Made by a program: the position numbers and the translations under genes
Origin: Thiospirochaeta perfilievii
Lineage (GTDB): Bacteria > Spirochaetota > Spirochaetia > DSM-2461
DNA length: 64,000 bases
Direction of reading: 5' to 3'
Assembly: GCF_008329945.1 (NCBI RefSeq)
Contig: NZ_CP035807.1
Coordinates: forward strand, 3,100,001-3,164,000
Shown here: piece by piece, positions 28,472 to 53,289 of the stretch
Layout of the letters: each line of letters starts with the position of its first letter
Numbering within the stretch: the stretch's first letter is position 1
Notes under the pieces: generated by a model
The model's database searches: none
Told to the model about the DNA's origin: nothing
Seen by the model: only the letters and a program-made list of their open reading frames with translations

Positions 28472-29773
28472 TTAGCTAATTTTAACCTCTTCACCACTTA
28501 GAATCTTATTCATATTTTTCACTGCACACATCTCTCCACACATTGTACAAGTATCCTCTTTATCTGGTTTAGCAGATTGTCGATATTTATAAGATTTTTC
28601 AGGATTTATCGATAGGGATATCATCTTCTCCCAGTCAAGCTCTGCCCTAGCCTTACTCATGTTATTATCTTTTTCTATAGCACCTGGAAATTTCCTAGCA
28701 ACATCACCAGCATGAGCTGCTATTTTTGTAGCCATTATTCCCTCGATCATATCATCTTCATCTGGTAGTCTTAAATGTTCTGCAGGGGTTACATAACAGA
28801 GAAAGTCAGCTCCAGAACTTGCAGCAATCGCTCCACCTATAGCACTAGTTATATGGTCATAACCAGGAGCAATATCTGTTACTAATGGTCCAAGAACGTA
28901 GAATGGAGCGTTAAACAGGAGTTTTTTAGCAATTATCATATTTGTTTTAACCTCATTTAAAGGAATATGCCCTGGCCCTTCTACCATTACTTGAACATTT
29001 TTAGCCCAAGCTCTTTTAGTCAGTTCTCCTAGGGTTATTAACTCCTCTAGCTGGGATGCATCTGTCGCATCATGTATGGAACCGGGTCTACAACCATCTC
29101 CTAGGCTAATAGTTACATCATACTCATATAAAACATCTAAAAACTCTTCATAGAACTCATAAAATGGATTTTCATTCCCAGTCATCTCCATCCAAGCAAA
29201 GAGTAGGGAGCCTCCCCGTGAAACTATATTGGTTAATCGCCTATTTCTTTTTACCCTTTGTGCTGTTTTTTTATTTAAACCGGCATGAATTGTCATAAAG
29301 TCAATTCCATCAATAGCGTGATCTTTTACACATTTTAAAAAATCATCCTTAGTTAGATCCTTTAAAGCTTTACCACTGTTACCTATCATATCGTACATTG
29401 GAACTGAACCTATCATACATGGGGATACTTCGACTAGATTCTGTCTAAAATCCCTTGTATCACCCCAACAGCTTAAATCCATTATTGAGTCAACATTTAG
29501 CTCTATAGCTTTTTTTACTTTTTTTAATTCTACATCCTTATCTGGGCAATCCTTTGATATTCCAATATTAACATTTACTTTAGTGGATGATAGTTCCCCA
29601 ATGGCTACAGGTCGTATATTTTTATGGTTCTTATTCCCAGGGATAATAAGTCTTCCATTAGATACTTCTTTAATTAGTAACTCCCTATTTATATTTTCAT
29701 TAGTTGCAACATACTCCATCTCTTTAGTAAATATACCCTTCCTAGCTGCCTCAATTTGTGTTTTATACTTCAT
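28472..29773 (-). CDS. thiC: phosphomethylpyrimidine synthase
   Basis: Radical-SAM enzyme that rearranges aminoimidazole ribotide (AIR) to HMP phosphate in thiamine biosynthesis. The 433-residue protein is of the shorter form common in anaerobes. Core motifs include [23 protein letters not shown] and [14 protein letters not shown]. The C-terminal Fe-S ligands are in CTMCGEMC, spaced C-x2-C-x3-C, one residue tighter than the C-x2-C-x4-C of the E. coli protein as I remember it. It is the last gene of the riboswitch-controlled thi operon and overlaps thiD2E by 11 bases. Confidence 0.96.
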
Positions 29774-30812
29774 TGTAACTCTTCTCCTCTATTTTTCTTA
29801 TTACTGCTTTTACCTTAGAACTAATGTCATTACTTAAAGTTAATTCTGATACTATTGCTACAGATTTAGCCCCTTGGGAGAGAACTGAATCTATATTTGC
29901 TTCTTTAATTCCACCAATTGCCACAAAAGGGATTGATATATTTTTCTCTACCCACTTAAGATAATCTAATCCAACAGCTTTGCAGACATTTACCTTTGTT
30001 TTGGTTGGAAAGATTGGACCAACACCAATATAGTCCGCTCCATCTAACTCGGCCTTTTTTGCTTGGGATGGGCTGTGGGTTGATACTCCTATAATTTTAT
30101 TTTTTCCAATAAGCTTTCTTACTCTATTTATTGGTAGATCATCTTGGCCAATATGGACACCATCTGCGTCTACTAATAGGGCTATATCTATATCATCATT
30201 AACAATAAAGGTTACATTATTTTTAGATGTAAGCTCCCTTATTTTTATACACTCTTTAAGTTTCTCCTTCTGGGAGAGATCTTTTTCTCTATACTGGATC
30301 AGTTTTAAATCCGCTTTAATAAACTCTTCTACAATATCAATATTTGAACGGCCTCTAGACCCTTTAAGGTAGGTAATCCCATATAAACTAGGAAGGGTTA
30401 GAAGTGGTTTTTCCTCTATATAAAATATAATCTCTCTCTCTAGGTTGTAAGTAACATATCTAACCTCTTTAAAAAGAGTATTCTCCTCAAATCTATTAAG
30501 ACTTTTGGCTATCTCTTCTAAAGTTCTAAGGCCCTCCTGTACTCTTTTAAAATTACCTAATATTATTGATTCTATAGACTTAAACTCTTCTAGATTAAGA
30601 TCTTGATCAACAATAAGCCCAATGTCCGACTGGACATCCCTATGGTGTAAAAGGGTCTTATCTAATTGATACAGGGATGTTCGAATCCTGTGCCTTGAGA
30701 CCTTCAACCTCTTTGTAAGATTTAACTCGTTGTATTTAAATCGTAAAATATCTTCAATTACACGAAAGCCCTCACACACCCTATTAATGTTACTATCCAT
30801 TAGTCTGTACAT
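29763..30812 (-). CDS. thiE: bifunctional ThiD2 (HMP-phosphate kinase)-ThiE (thiamine-phosphate synthase)
   Basis: A 349-residue fusion. Residues about 1-130 match the ThiD2 type of N-terminal domain ([33 protein letters not shown]), shown in other bacteria to phosphorylate HMP phosphate. Residues about 140-345 are ThiE, which joins HMP-PP to thiazole phosphate. ThiE motifs include [43 protein letters not shown] and VAIGGI. This explains why no thiD is found in the cluster. ATG 30812 is chosen because AAGGA lies 6 bases upstream. It overlaps thiF by 13 bases. Confidence 0.9.
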
Positions 30813-31399
30813 CTTAAATCCTTAATTGAGTATTTTAAAATTAGTGCCGCCTGTTTAGCTGAGCAGATAGAAACTCCAGGCATAATTGGGCTTATACCAT
30901 CCTCAATACCAGACTTAAAATCACCAACTACTGTTAGTCTAGAATTTAACTCTCTCTCAACTATTCCATCTGTTTTCCAAAAATTACCAAGACCACTAGC
31001 AGAAACACACCTTACATTAGTGGGAATATTCTCTAATAAAGTTTTTTTGGACTCTATAGTATCAAGACCTTCAACAATAAAGTTACAACTTGAAAAAATT
31101 TTAAAGATACTATTTTTATCTAGTCTCTCCCTAACAATATCTACAGTTATATTAGGGTTAATCATAAGAAGATTCTCTTTTAATGCTTCTACTTTATAAT
31201 CTCCTATCTGTTTATAGAAATAGAACTGTCTATTAAGATTAGAAATATCAATTCTATCAAAATCTACTAGGATGAAGTGTTTAAAACCCATTCTTACTAG
31301 GTTTAATGCGGTATTAGAACCTAAACCTCCACACCCTGCAATACCAACTATCTTCTTCTCTATACTTAATAGCTCTTGTTTTGTATATAGACTTGTCAT
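30800..31399 (-). CDS. thiF: ThiS adenylyltransferase ThiF
   Basis: E1-like enzyme that adenylates the C-terminal glycine of ThiS so that sulfur can be attached. The 199-residue protein carries the nucleotide-binding loop GIAGCGGLGSNTALNL and the DISNLNRQFYF arginine/asparagine motif. It is a short ThiF without the C-terminal CxxC zinc motifs seen in longer family members, a form I associate with anaerobes. ATG 31399 overlaps the thiH stop as ATGA, indicating coupling. A TTG four codons upstream is possible but less likely. Confidence 0.9.
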   Translation of the reverse strand: MTSLYTKQELLSIEKKIVGIAGCGGLGSNTALNLVRMGFKHFILVDFDRIDISNLNRQFYFYKQIGDYKVEALKENLLMINPNITVDIVRERLDKNSIFKIFSSCNFIVEGLDTIESKKTLLENIPTNVRCVSASGLGNFWKTDGIVERELNSRLTVVGDFKSGIEDGISPIMPGVSICSAKQAALILKYSIKDLRCTD

Positions 31400-32499
31400 A
31401 CCGTTACCCAATCCTTATAAATAGGTTGATATCCTAAATCTCTTAACCTAGAATCAATTTCAAAGATTGATCTATTATCAGATATTTCAAACTGTTTATC
31501 GCTTTTACTTTTTGTATAACCACCTACATCTGTTTTTGAACCTGCAGAGATCTTGGTTACTCCAAGTTGTAATAGGTTATCCCTAAGCTCTGAACTCTCC
31601 CTTGTAGATAAAGATATACCCGCTTTTGGAAGGAATAACCTAAATACCACTATAAGTTTAGTGAAAAGCCTGTCATCTATAGTGTACTCCTGCTTAAAAT
31701 TACCACTACTACTTTTGATTCTTGGTAGTGACATGGTTAAATCTGCATGGGGGTACATCTTAAATAGATATAAACTATGAATTGAAGCCATAAAAAAATC
31801 GATAATTGGGTCTCCTAAGCCTAGTAGGACACCTAAGTTTATACTTTTGATTCCGTTAGATAGAGCTCTCTTAGGAGCCTCTAACCTAAAATTATAGTCT
31901 GACTTCTCTCCATATAGGTGTAGTTTTTTATATAGGTTCATATTATAGGTCTCTTGGTAGATTGTAACATTGTGAACACCTAAATCTCTTAACTCCTTAT
32001 ATTCCCTATTACTCATTGAGTACATCTCTATTGAAATCGAATCAAAATATTTTTTTGCTGTTTTTATTGACTCTTTAATGTATTTAATTGGACTTTTAAC
32101 CCTATCCCCACCTGTAAGAAGTAGAATGTGTCTAATACCCTCTTGTTTAAGCTTCAAGCATTCGTTTTCTAGCTCGTAACTACTTAATCGTGATCTTTTT
32201 ATAGAGTTATCCTTATTAAATCCACAATAAACACACCTATTATTACAGTGGTTTGAAAGATATATAGGACTATATACTAAAACAGTTTTTCCAAACTCTC
32301 TAATAGTTAGAGCCTTAGCCCTAATAGCAAGCTCCTCTAAAAGATCATCAGAGGCTGGACTTAGAAGTGTTAGTAGGTCTAAGGGTTCTAGATCCCCTTT
32401 ATTTAATACCTTTAAAACATCATCTTTAGTAAAACTTTTAAGACTCTTCTCAAAATTATAATTAAGCCAATATTTAAGATTGTTATTAAAATCATCCAT
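31396..32499 (-). CDS. thiH: 2-iminoacetate synthase (tyrosine lyase)
   Basis: Radical-SAM enzyme that splits tyrosine to give dehydroglycine, the glycine-derived unit of the thiazole ring. The 367-residue protein has the cluster motif [10 protein letters not shown] (CX3CX2C), downstream LLTGGD and the C-terminal biotin/ThiH-associated region. ThiH replaces the oxygen-requiring ThiO and so points to an anaerobic lifestyle. It overlaps thiG upstream by 8 bases and thiF downstream by 4 bases, within a tightly packed operon. Confidence 0.95.
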
Positions 32500-33262
32500 T
32501 TAAAAAACCTGTTAGGGGGCTAGAGGCCACAGCTATAGAACTTCTACAACCTAAACCTGCTAGATAGGCATTTCTGCCAGATATTACAGCATCTTTAAAT
32601 GCACTTGCCATCAATATAGGGTTAGGGCTAGATGCAATAGCTGTATTTACTAAGCAAGCATCAACACCCATTTCCATTACAACTGCAGCATCAGAAGGTT
32701 TCCCGATCCCCGCATCAACAATAATAGGTAGATCAATAAGCTCGACTAAAACCCTAATCATCTCCATACACCTTATTCCTCGATTACTTCCAATTGGACT
32801 TCCTAGAGGCATTATTGCTGCAGCTCCGGCATCCTTTAGGCTTCTTCCTAGGTATAGATCCGCATTTACATATGGAAGAACTATAAAGCCATCCTTAGAG
32901 AGTTCCTCGGTAGCTTTTAATGTTTCATAACCGTTAGGTAATAGATACTTGTTATCACTAATAACCTCAATTTTTATAAAGTTACCATGACCTGAAGCTC
33001 TAGATATTTGAGCTATTTTTATAGCTTCCTTAGCATCTCTTGCTCCAGAAGTATTGGGAAGTAGTTGTATATTAGGGGGGATGTAGTCCATTACAGACCT
33101 ATAGGGAGAGTCAAAATCCACTCTTCTAAGTGCAACTGTTATTATCTGGGACTCACTAGCACTTGTTACTTGTGGGATTATTTCATCTGTTGAATACTTT
33201 CCAGTTCCTGTAAGTAGCCTTGAATTAAAAAATTTACCACCTAATTCAAATAGATCTTTCAT
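32492..33262 (-). CDS. thiG: thiazole synthase
   Basis: Forms the thiazole phosphate ring from deoxyxylulose phosphate, dehydroglycine and ThiS-thiocarboxylate. The roughly 256-residue TIM barrel starts with the family pattern [12 protein letters not shown]. It contains [30 protein letters not shown] in segments (for example [10 protein letters not shown] and [10 protein letters not shown]). I chose ATG 33262, which is preceded by a GGTGGGGG run that also encodes the ThiS Gly tail. An in-frame GTG lies 4 codons upstream. It is co-transcribed with thiS and thiH. Confidence 0.96.
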
Positions 33263-33263
33263 C

Positions 33264-33464
33264 TCAACCCCCACCTACAATAGACAGAATCTCGATTTGA
33301 GACTCCTGTATAATAGAAGTAGACTCAAAGTGTTTTGACTTAATTATTTCTTGATTAAGCTGGATAATAATCTTGTTAGGATCGACTTTAAGATCTTTTA
33401 ATAGTTCTAATATAGATAAATTGTTATCTATATCCCTTTTTTTACCATTGATAGTAACTTTCAT
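33264..33464 (-). CDS. thiS: sulfur carrier protein ThiS
   Basis: A 66-residue ubiquitin-like protein whose C-terminal Gly-Gly (ends VGGG) is adenylated by ThiF and then carries sulfur to ThiG. The N-terminal strand [12 protein letters not shown] and middle helix [10 protein letters not shown] fit the fold. It is the first gene after the TPP riboswitch, with Shine-Dalgarno GAGGAG at 33475-33470, 5 bases before ATG. Confidence 0.93.
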
Positions 33465-33506
33465 TTAGTCTCCTCTGTGGGGAAACCTTTGAACATTAAA
33501 AAAGTC

Positions 33507-33545
33507 TAAAAAAAAGGCTTTTGAAAATATTACAATTCAAAAGCC
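33507..33545 (-). terminator. riboswitch-linked intrinsic terminator before thiS
   Basis: On the minus strand GGCTTTTGAA (33545-33536) and TTCAAAAGCC (33525-33516) form a 10-bp stem, followed by eight Ts (33515-33508). It lies between the TPP aptamer and thiS. Its 5' arm GGCUU is complementary to AAGCC at the aptamer 3' end (33581-33577), which gives a simple antiterminator for the TPP-free state. Confidence 0.85.
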
Positions 33546-33576
33546 ATAAATATAAAAAAGTATATTTTTTATTTTA

Positions 33577-33656
33577 GGCTTCCCTACGACAGTATTAACT
33601 GTATCAGGTTCAAAGGGTCAGTATATAACTTCTCAGCCTAAATAGGCTCCCCTAGC
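33577..33656 (-). promoter_or_regulatory. TPP riboswitch (THI element)
   Basis: Minus-strand RNA holds the conserved thiamine-pyrophosphate aptamer. GGGGAGCC is at 33652-33645, CUGAGA at 33636-33631, ACCCUUUGAACCUGAU at 33618-33603 and GUAGGGAAG at 33587-33579, in the correct order. It controls thiS-thiG-thiH-thiF-thiD2E-thiC, presumably by TPP-dependent termination at the hairpin 33545-33507. A weak promoter-like TTGAAT-17-TAATCT lies at 33694-33666, overlapping the fni stop codon. Confidence 0.96.
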
Positions 33657-33690
33657 ATTTATTGAAGATTAACCAATTTTAATTTTTTAT

Positions 33691-34692
33691 TCAAGTCTCT
33701 AAATTTAATCGTAAAAAATTTTGAGAAAAGTTAAAATTATCTATTTCTGAGGTAAAAAAACTATTAAGGTGATTCTGTGATCTTATTGCGTTTTCGAGTA
33801 CTTTATATGCATAACCATATAGGGATGGTGCATTTAATAGTTTTGTATAATAATATCCATCTAAAAAGTCTCTTACTCCACCTGAAACAATAAACTCCTT
33901 CTCTTTTCCAAGACCTAGAGAGAGTAGGGTATTTACATTTTTAATCATATCAAACTTACTATTACCAATATTAATAAGAGGTTGACTATTTATCGCTTTA
34001 CAAGAATTTTTATCCCTTAATAGCTCTAATTTCGTAAAATTAGTCCCACCAAAGGATGCTAAATCAATAACATCTATAGGAAGTTTTAATAACTCTTTTA
34101 AGCTACTAGGTCCAAATCCTGCACCAACTTCCTTAACAATTATTTTTGTTTTAAACTGTGGTAGTGTTTTTTCTAAGGTTATTAGTGGACTCTCTTTTAA
34201 AAGATCTCCACCCTTTTGTACCCACTCCTGTAGAGGATTAATATGAATAATTAGACCATCTAAATCTAAATTTCTAATAACCTTCTCTATTTTAAATAGC
34301 TCATCCCGATTTACTAACTGCTCAATTTGGGAAATACCTAGATTCCCAAAGAGTAGAACTTTATCTCCTGTAAACTCCCTTAGGACAAAACTCTTTGGGT
34401 TTTTATTCTCTAAATAGGGGCGTAATGAACCTACACCCATTGGAAGATTAAAAATTTTAGCTGCTGTAGCAATCCTTTTATTTATCTTTAATGATTTTCT
34501 ACTACCCCCCGTCATACTCGATAAGAAGATTGGAGCTCCAATATTTTGTCCTAAGAACCTGTAGGAGTAGTGCTGAGTTTGATGGTTAGATATTAGTGGT
34601 TCATAATTAAATCTAACATCTAATAAATTCTCAGCTACCTGGGATTTTTTAGATAGCTTTATATGTTGGTTTTTTCTTAAACTTATACTCAT
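33691..34692 (-). CDS. fni: isopentenyl-diphosphate delta-isomerase, type 2 (FMN)
   Basis: Flavoenzyme that interconverts IPP and DMAPP, downstream of the MEP pathway to which ispG in this window belongs. The 333-residue protein starts with RKNQHIKLSK and contains IFLSSMTGGS, LPMGVGSLRP, LDGLIIHINPLQE, KEVGAGFG and an FMN-binding FIVSGGVRDFLDG, all as in type 2 isomerases. No Shine-Dalgarno precedes the ATG. A TATACT at 34704-34699 ends seven bases before it, so the mRNA may be leaderless. It precedes the thi operon on the same strand but is separated by the riboswitch region. Confidence 0.92.
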   Translation of the reverse strand: MSISLRKNQHIKLSKKSQVAENLLDVRFNYEPLISNHQTQHYSYRFLGQNIGAPIFLSSMTGGSRKSLKINKRIATAAKIFNLPMGVGSLRPYLENKNPKSFVLREFTGDKVLLFGNLGISQIEQLVNRDELFKIEKVIRNLDLDGLIIHINPLQEWVQKGGDLLKESPLITLEKTLPQFKTKIIVKEVGAGFGPSSLKELLKLPIDVIDLASFGGTNFTKLELLRDKNSCKAINSQPLINIGNSKFDMIKNVNTLLSLGLGKEKEFIVSGGVRDFLDGYYYTKLLNAPSLYGYAYKVLENAIRSQNHLNSFFTSEIDNFNFSQNFLRLNLET

Positions 34693-52627: not shown

Positions 52628-52699
52628 GCCGTCTTAGCTCAGTGGTAGAGCAACGCACTTGTAATGCGTAGGTCATCAGTTCAACTCTGATAGACGGCT
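52628..52699 (+). tRNA. tRNA-Thr (TGT), copy 1
   Basis: Acceptor stem GCCGTCT/AGACGGC, D-arm with AGTGGTA, anticodon loop CTTGTAA (TGT) and T-arm with TTCAACT fold as a complete cloverleaf. Discriminator base is T; CCA is not encoded, so the tRNA nucleotidyltransferase (cca, this window) would add it. Confidence 0.97.
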
Positions 52700-52706
52700 T
52701 AATAAT

Positions 52707-52787
52707 GGGGAGGTTCCCGAGTGGTCAAAGGGGGCAGACTGTAAATCTGTTACTTCGGTTTCGAAGGTTCAAATCCTTCTCTCCCCA
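52707..52787 (+). tRNA. tRNA-Tyr (GTA), copy 1
   Basis: Class II tRNA of 81 bases with acceptor GGGGAGG/TCTCCCC (one G-T pair), anticodon loop CTGTAAA (GTA) and a long variable arm (TTACTTCGGTTTC). The T-loop is TTCAAAT. CCA is not encoded. Confidence 0.97.
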
Positions 52788-52848
52788 TAATTCTGTTTTA
52801 CAGAATATCTAATCTTATTGGTTAGGCGTACTTTATGTACAAGACAAC

Positions 52849-52920
52849 GCCGTCTTAGCTCAGTGGTAGAGCAACGCACTTGTAATGCGTAGGTCATCAG
52901 TTCAACTCTGATAGACGGCT
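52849..52920 (+). tRNA. tRNA-Thr (TGT), copy 2
   Basis: Identical in sequence to copy 1, 221 bases downstream. Confidence 0.97.
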
Positions 52921-52927
52921 TAATAAT

Positions 52928-53008
52928 GGGGAGGTTCCCGAGTGGTCAAAGGGGGCAGACTGTAAATCTGTTACTTCGGTTTCGAAGGTTCAAATCCTTC
53001 TCTCCCCA
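52928..53008 (+). tRNA. tRNA-Tyr (GTA), copy 2
   Basis: Identical in sequence to copy 1, 221 bases downstream. Confidence 0.97.
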
Positions 53009-53069
53009 TAATTCTGTTTTGCAGAATATCTAATCTTATTGGTTAGGCGTACTTTATGTACAAGACAAT

Positions 53070-53141
53070 GCCGTCTTAGCTCAGTGGTAGAGCAACGCAC
53101 TTGTAATGCGTAGGTCATCAGTTCAACTCTGATAGACGGCT
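53070..53141 (+). tRNA. tRNA-Thr (TGT), copy 3
   Basis: Identical in sequence to copies 1 and 2. Confidence 0.97.
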
Positions 53142-53148
53142 TAATAAT

Positions 53149-53229
53149 GGGGAGGTTCCCGAGTGGTCAAAGGGGGCAGACTGTAAATCTGTTACTTCGG
53201 TTTCGAAGGTTCAAATCCTTCTCTCCCCA
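53149..53229 (+). tRNA. tRNA-Tyr (GTA), copy 3
   Basis: Identical in sequence to copies 1 and 2; last gene of the array before the terminator. Confidence 0.97.
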
Positions 53230-53289
53230 ATATTTTATACTAAAATTTTACATTAAAGTTTCCTTGTTTAGACAAGTTGCACTTCTTAG

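Follow-up and report, generated by a model that had tools for sequence, protein, structure and literature searches.

A candidate clamp on the aptamer core behind the terminator of the thiS TPP riboswitch in Thiospirochaeta perfilievii

In the Escherichia coli thiC riboswitch, which senses thiamin pyrophosphate (TPP), the anti-P1 stem has been demonstrated to lock out TPP sensing (PMC5234074). According to a review of strand-exchange riboswitches, the switching sequence lies most commonly within the first helix (PMC10907184). In the ligand-free thiM riboswitch, helices P2 and P3 were reported to be still formed (PMC3280964), and in a covariation model from 2026 that covers TPP riboswitches in full, the aptamer and the expression platform have only two nucleotides in common (PMC13273304). 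Here, we analyzed the leader of the thiS operon in a 64,000-nucleotide (nt) stretch of the Thiospirochaeta perfilievii genome (contig NZ_CP035807.1; hereafter the window, to which all coordinates refer). This leader carries, downstream of its terminator, an element complementary to the core of the TPP aptamer. We see about an even chance that the element forms a clamp on the core (the P2 3' strand, the joining segment J2-4, and the P2 5' strand), not on P1, which would lock the ligand-free state after an intact terminator, give one aptamer two checkpoints, and be kept in a relative without a terminator. A literature search turned up nothing on TPP expression platforms of spirochaetes; most subscription journals were outside the search, and an earlier description of a clamp on the core is possible.

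A complement of the aptamer core upstream of thiS

By its sequence, predicted fold, and gene context, the leader is a TPP riboswitch, for which TPP binding and an effect on expression are predicted. The aptamer scored 82.5 bits against RF00059 (gathering score, 54.3) and matched it over the full length, with the sequence and the five-helix fold of the family. Its 3' end lies 100 nt upstream of thiS, the first of six thiamin biosynthesis genes; genes for thiamin biosynthesis or transport are what RF00059 expects downstream. The features of the leader are as follows.

33564-33663, minus strand: TPP riboswitch aptamer (RF00059; cmscan, 82.5 bits, E 8.3e-15, full length 1-105)
33649-33652, minus strand: GGGG, P2 5' strand, predicted clamp partner of the C-run (free-ensemble pairing probability, 0.93)
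33608-33616, minus strand: CCUUUGAAC, aptamer core (P2 3' strand and J2-4, to the first P4 base), invariant in three genomes
33577-33581, minus strand: AAGCC, aptamer 3' end (P1 3' strand), predicted antiterminator partner of GGCUU (probability, 1.00)
33508-33545, minus strand: intrinsic terminator, 10-bp stem, 10-nt loop, U8 (RNAfold, -12.8 kcal/mol)
33486-33494, minus strand: GUUCAAAGG, candidate core-binding half of the clamp (exact complement; shuffles; congener complements in place)
33479-33482, minus strand: CCCC, candidate second half of the clamp, predicted to pair with the P2 5' strand (C-run in three genomes; probability, 0.93)
33467-33487, minus strand: predicted hairpin GGUUUCC:GGAGACU sequestering the Shine-Dalgarno (SD) sequence, exclusive with the clamp (probability, 0.98 when the aptamer is imposed and 0.03 in the free ensemble)
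33470-33475, minus strand: SD sequence GAGGAG of thiS, 5 nt upstream of the AUG
33264-33464, minus strand: thiS, first gene of the operon (TIGR01683, 66.7 bits; cutoff, 37.45)
28472-33464, minus strand: operon thiS-thiG-thiH-thiF-thiE-thiC (thi gene family matches)

A preliminary description of this DNA had named four segments, and all four were found where it placed them on the minus strand: CCUUUGAAC (33616-33608), GUUCAAAGG (33494-33486), GGUUUCCC (33487-33480), and GGGAAGCC (33584-33577). The perfect 9-base complementarity that it reported between the first two is exact, and in the folding model, CCUUUGAAC paired with the 9-mer with a mean probability of 0.89. Dinucleotide shuffling of the 42-nt segment that follows the terminator produced an aptamer complement of 9 nt 14 times in 3000; for the entire stretch downstream of the aptamer, the figure was 63 of 3000, and for complements of the core alone, it was 10 of 3000. 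The resulting p value is about 0.003-0.02. On its own, the match is suggestive only, a chance origin being unlikely yet possible; it is the sequence comparison with two congeners that makes the 9-mer convincing as a candidate element.

Three genomes of the genus were compared, namely, that of the window and those of the congeners G015 and G016, to whose ThiG proteins the ThiG of the window is 71% and 68% identical. The three leaders can barely be aligned downstream of the aptamer and terminator, and all three have an 8- to 9-nt complement of the same aptamer core just upstream of the SD sequence, at a distance from the AUG of 30 nt in the window (GUUCAAAGG), 27 nt in G016 (GUUCAAAG), and 36 nt in G015 (UCAGGUUCA). 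A C-run follows the complement in each of them. The register is shifted in G015, where UCAGGUUCA pairs with UGAACCUGA, further 3' in the core. The core itself is the same in all three genomes, and because of this, the covariation of the two 9-base segments by which the preliminary description proposed to check the pairing is not visible. Covariation is the wrong test here; what is informative instead is that the register has moved with complementarity kept, and we regard this as the equivalent of covariation evidence. With the complement kept in both congeners, a real and conserved long-range pairing of the 9-base segment with the aptamer core is probable, as had been proposed.

The core element is not general across the class. 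A pattern scan of 395 genomes of the class with set spacing found the exact 8-mer arrangement only in the genome of the window (the spacing in G016 is shorter), and the shifted arrangement occurred inside a TPP leader only in G015. Among 57 thiS leaders, mostly from other phyla, complements of at least 8 nt were found only in the record of G016 itself and in two others, one lying near a terminator and the other beside the start codon, overlapping the SD sequence. E. coli thiC, thiM, and thiB have no core complement longer than 4-5 nt. No relative of ThiG was found among viral contigs.

Predicted folding states and their alternatives

The terminator at 33545-33508 has the composition GGCUUUUGAA-N10-UUCAAAAGCC-U8; an automatic terminator scan missed it because its 10-nt loop exceeds the permitted 8. 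Its 5' arm includes GGCUU, a possible partner of AAGCC in the 3' strand of P1; this pairing was already pointed out in the preliminary description. In folds of the growing transcript, this antiterminator had a probability of 1.00 when the RNA stopped before the 3' arm of the terminator, and the terminator reached 0.99 once the arm was made. The leader thus has a mutually exclusive antiterminator, using the P1 3' strand, and a U-tailed terminator, a design like that of most thiS leaders gathered via ThiG from Clostridia and Deltaproteobacteria. The arrangement is kept in G015, and no recognizable intrinsic terminator was found in the G016 leader.

In the predicted ensemble, the CCCC:GGGG helix is nested with the core helix of the 9-mer, and both form jointly. 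The ensemble probabilities of the core helix and the C-run helix were 0.94 and 0.93 for the window, 1.00 and 0.89 for G015, and 0.50 and 0.28 for G016; in G015, UGCU of the P1 strand also joins the predicted clamp by pairing with AGCA. When only the element was shuffled, the expected count of core pairs was matched in 11, 3, and 8 of 300 shuffles (window, G015, and G016, respectively), and that of both parts of the clamp was matched in 3, 1, and 37 of 300. In the clamp state, P2 is lost, P4 is mostly lost, and the terminator hairpin remains intact inside the clamp. Enforcing the aptamer gave the SD hairpin a probability of 0.98; in the free ensemble, which is dominated by the clamp, the value was 0.03. 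This is the comparison of folds with and without an aptamer constraint that the preliminary description had called for, and in the model, it bears out the view that pairing of the 9-mer opens the ribosome-binding site. The order of folding in the growing transcript was antiterminator and aptamer, then the terminator if allowed, and then the clamp, which appeared only after the C-run had been transcribed (0.97 and 0.98).

The clamp state was better than the aptamer state by 2.6 kcal/mol for the window, 5.4 kcal/mol for G015, and 0.3 kcal/mol for G016. With published TPP dissociation constants of 50-500 nM (PMC3280964), micromolar TPP would, by our estimate, be worth a few kcal/mol, in a model that has no tertiary contacts. 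Since the binding energy would be of this size, the ligand could plausibly choose the state, at least cotranscriptionally.

We therefore lean toward an OFF-type TPP riboswitch with two serial checkpoints, a terminator followed by a two-part clamp on the core that would free the SD sequence. In the first step, as the anatomy of the leader suggests, P1 stabilized by TPP would withhold AAGCC from GGCUU, and the terminator would form. In the second step, in RNA that has been read through, GUUCAAAGG and CCCC (33494-33479) would pair with the core CCUUUGAAC and with GGGG of the P2 5' strand. Without TPP, the clamp would dismantle P2 and P4, spare P3 and P5, and consume bases of the SD hairpin, so that thiS would be translated; it should also act as a lock that keeps the RNA from binding TPP at a later time. 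In the presence of TPP, P2 and P4 would be held, the clamp would be prevented, and the SD hairpin would form. The clamp would most likely be a translational antisequestor and a lock behind a transcriptional checkpoint. Because the element is transcribed after the terminator, the clamp cannot affect termination; the blocking of the terminator by this element, which had also been suggested, does not hold, as the polymerase is already past that point. An element without a recognizable terminator, as in G016, fits a translational role. From the model, we infer that cells contain both states, that these control translation, and that the clamp locks.

By core complementarity, the three genus leaders rank 2nd to 4th of 89 Spirochaetia TPP leaders. 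Several points weigh against the clamp. There are only three genomes, and with their shared ancestry, neither these ranks nor the shuffle values are independent; the aptamer side never varies, and covariation is absent. In a class-wide interaction test with an unpairable linker, pairing with the core was not enriched across 90 leaders. The clamp state of the window opens the SD sequence only partially, the mean unpaired probability of the SD rising from 0.18 to 0.37 between the aptamer and clamp states (from 0.16 to 0.78 in G015 and from 0.50 to 0.66 in G016). G016 is marginal, its clamp having a probability of 0.99 in RNA ending at the AUG, 0.51 with 18 nt more, and 0.00 with 40 nt more. The clamp of the window likewise drops to 0.02 when 40 nt of coding sequence is added, because the coding sequence supplies a competing partner. 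What the analysis does show is the complementarity, the shuffle statistics, the genus-wide position with its change of register, and the two-state folding prediction.

The same evidence bears on four other readings. It is unlikely, though still to be reckoned with, that the 9-mer is coincidental and that the leader is an ordinary terminating TPP riboswitch in which the region after the terminator is irrelevant. Complements of at least 8 nt do appear occasionally in other leaders, the p value for the entire downstream stretch is only about 0.02, and a terminator-only design dominates the thiS leaders of other phyla. However, coincidence would have to place a core complement at the same position in both congeners, in one of them in another register, and to retain it in G016, where no terminator is recognizable; it would also have to produce the clean two-state system that the joint clamp and the SD hairpin form in the fold.

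More improbable is that the segment is mainly an anti-SD arm, with the C-run selected for pairing with the SD sequence, the SD freed in some other way, and the match to the aptamer secondary. The hairpin GGUUUCC:GGAGACU, which reaches 0.98 alongside the folded aptamer, and the C-run upstream of the SD in all three genomes agree with this. Such an arm leaves unexplained the conserved core complement, which lies 5' of the C-run and mostly outside the SD hairpin, and also the register shift in G015; moreover, pairing of the C-run with the SD is weak in G016, where the SD is open at 0.50 with the aptamer formed.

It is very unlikely that the segment represents a terminator arm that has decayed or been duplicated. 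There is a likeness between GUUCAAAGG and the 3' arm UUCAAAAGCC, which is itself like a core complement, and UUCAAA is common to the element and that arm; in G016, the upstream CUUUUGAA could pair with UUCAAAG. However, the G015 element no longer resembles its own terminator arm and has kept its complementarity to the aptamer, pairing of the terminator 5' arm with the 9-mer was 0.00 in the window fold, the local fold of G016 lacks the CUUUUGAA hairpin, and all three genomes lack a U-tract behind the element. Decay or duplication of a terminator arm may nevertheless be how the element arose.

The second pairing in the preliminary description, GGUUUCCC with GGGAAGCC, proposed as an alternative fold that would block the terminator or open the ribosome-binding site, has next to no likelihood as the switch: its eight pairs, one of them G-U, are present in the sequence, but they overlap the 9-mer by two bases and cross its helix, their ensemble probability was 0.003, enforcing them cost about 3.5 kcal/mol relative to the 9-mer fold, UUCCC is absent from this place in both congeners, and the terminator is transcribed ahead of the element.

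Other TPP leaders and neighboring genes

In the class-wide test, enrichment was seen for pairing between the P1/P2 5' strand of the aptamer and the sequence preceding the SD, with 29 of the 90 leaders in the lowest decile; this is consistent with the known anti-P1 mode. Upstream of a gene in G030 and one in G055 (leaders L062 and L055), the protein of which starts with MPAMHLSLQILPRV, CUCCCUUUGA stands before the SD; it complements UCAAAGGGAG of the aptamer 5' strand and can also pair with the SD sequence GGGAGG. By sequence, this arrangement reads as a textbook anti-P1/P2 antisequestor. In three other leaders (L085 and L092, from G370 and G141, and L137, from Tepidibacter thalassicus), the SD region itself (AGGUUGA or AGGUUAAA), just before the start codon, complements the core (UCAACCU or UUUAACCU). 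Because these are exact matches of 7-8 nt, direct pairing between the core and the SD is possible there.

The leader of a thi4-like gene in G085 (L110/L220, G085:C394) contains AUCAGGUUC, a 9-nt core complement (p, 0.002). CGUUUA comes next, a complement of the UAAACG with which the aptamer starts, and the leader has no terminator. This may be an independent two-part clamp, still unproven, and the element was not seen in the TPP leaders of the congeners of G085. The thiS leader of G156, with GGUUCAA (7 nt), was considered and set aside as unproven: its clamp probability in the full fold was about 0, and 134 of 300 shuffles were as good.

A gene resembling type 2 isopentenyl-diphosphate isomerase (33691-34692, minus strand; 181.6 bits, under the family cutoff of 281.3) stops about 30 nt upstream of the aptamer start. 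No promoter-like site above chance was found in the gap between them, so the thi operon may be transcribed through from this gene; in G015, a different gene lies upstream of the TPP leader. A second TPP aptamer in the genome of the window precedes a gene resembling a transporter component, and its leader contains no core-complement element. Within the operon, ThiE (29763-30812, minus strand) has 349 amino acids with an N-terminal extension of about 140, and among NCBIfam models, it matches PRK02615, the long thiamine phosphate synthase, best (327.2 bits, just below the cutoff of 335). Elsewhere in the window, at 52628-53230 on the plus strand, a tRNA-Thr(UGU)-tRNA-Tyr(GUA) pair occurs three times in tandem with a period of 221 bases and equal family scores, and the array looks like a recent tandem amplification.

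Comparison with known TPP riboswitches

The closest counterparts of the proposed clamp are E. coli thiC and tbpA (thiB), in which a long-range stem of the TPP-free RNA excludes the stem that sequesters the ribosome-binding site and makes the RNA refractory to TPP (PMC5234074, PMC11487190). Exclusion of this kind, which defines an antisequestor, is predicted here between the clamp and the SD hairpin (0.98 versus 0.03), and as in thiC and tbpA, both transcription and translation would be controlled. Unlike the E. coli stems, which use the P1 5' strand, the predicted stem uses the P2 3' strand, J2-4, and the P2 5' strand; P1 bases, on which anti-P1 antisequestors draw, are used only in G015, which adds four. 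In E. coli thiC and tbpA, mRNA levels are controlled via Rho, whereas here an intrinsic terminator lies upstream of the element. The antiterminator, formed by the P1 3' strand and the terminator 5' arm, and the U-tract terminator are like those of the Bacillus tenA type, Neisseria thiC (PMC7237195), and the thiS leaders of Clostridia and Deltaproteobacteria. The operon is also of the same type as in those transcription-attenuating riboswitches, which, as far as tested, have no further aptamer-binding element between the terminator and the SD sequence.

Control of termination and ribosome access by one aptamer recalls the dual class of Barrick and Breaker (PMC2258182). The leader does not belong to that class as described: there, the ribosome-binding site is inside the terminator, whereas the terminator and the SD hairpin are separate here, the terminator stem ending at 33516, 51 nt from the AUG at 33464, and the SD would be under a clamp of its own. 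Similarly to eukaryotic TPP riboswitches (PMC2258182), a core strand rather than P1 would switch in a long-range helix; the eukaryotic output is splicing, with a P4-P5 strand pairing with the 5' splice site, whereas P2 and J2-4 would be used here. Unlike in ligand-free thiM, P2 is predicted to be dismantled. If the clamp on the core is true, the register of a platform may drift against a fixed target, a change invisible to methods based on covariation, and the leader would be a natural example of a single aptamer whose control of transcription and of translation is divided between distinct elements that can mutate separately. A clamp on the core would thus be a predicted new twist on a well-known riboswitch.
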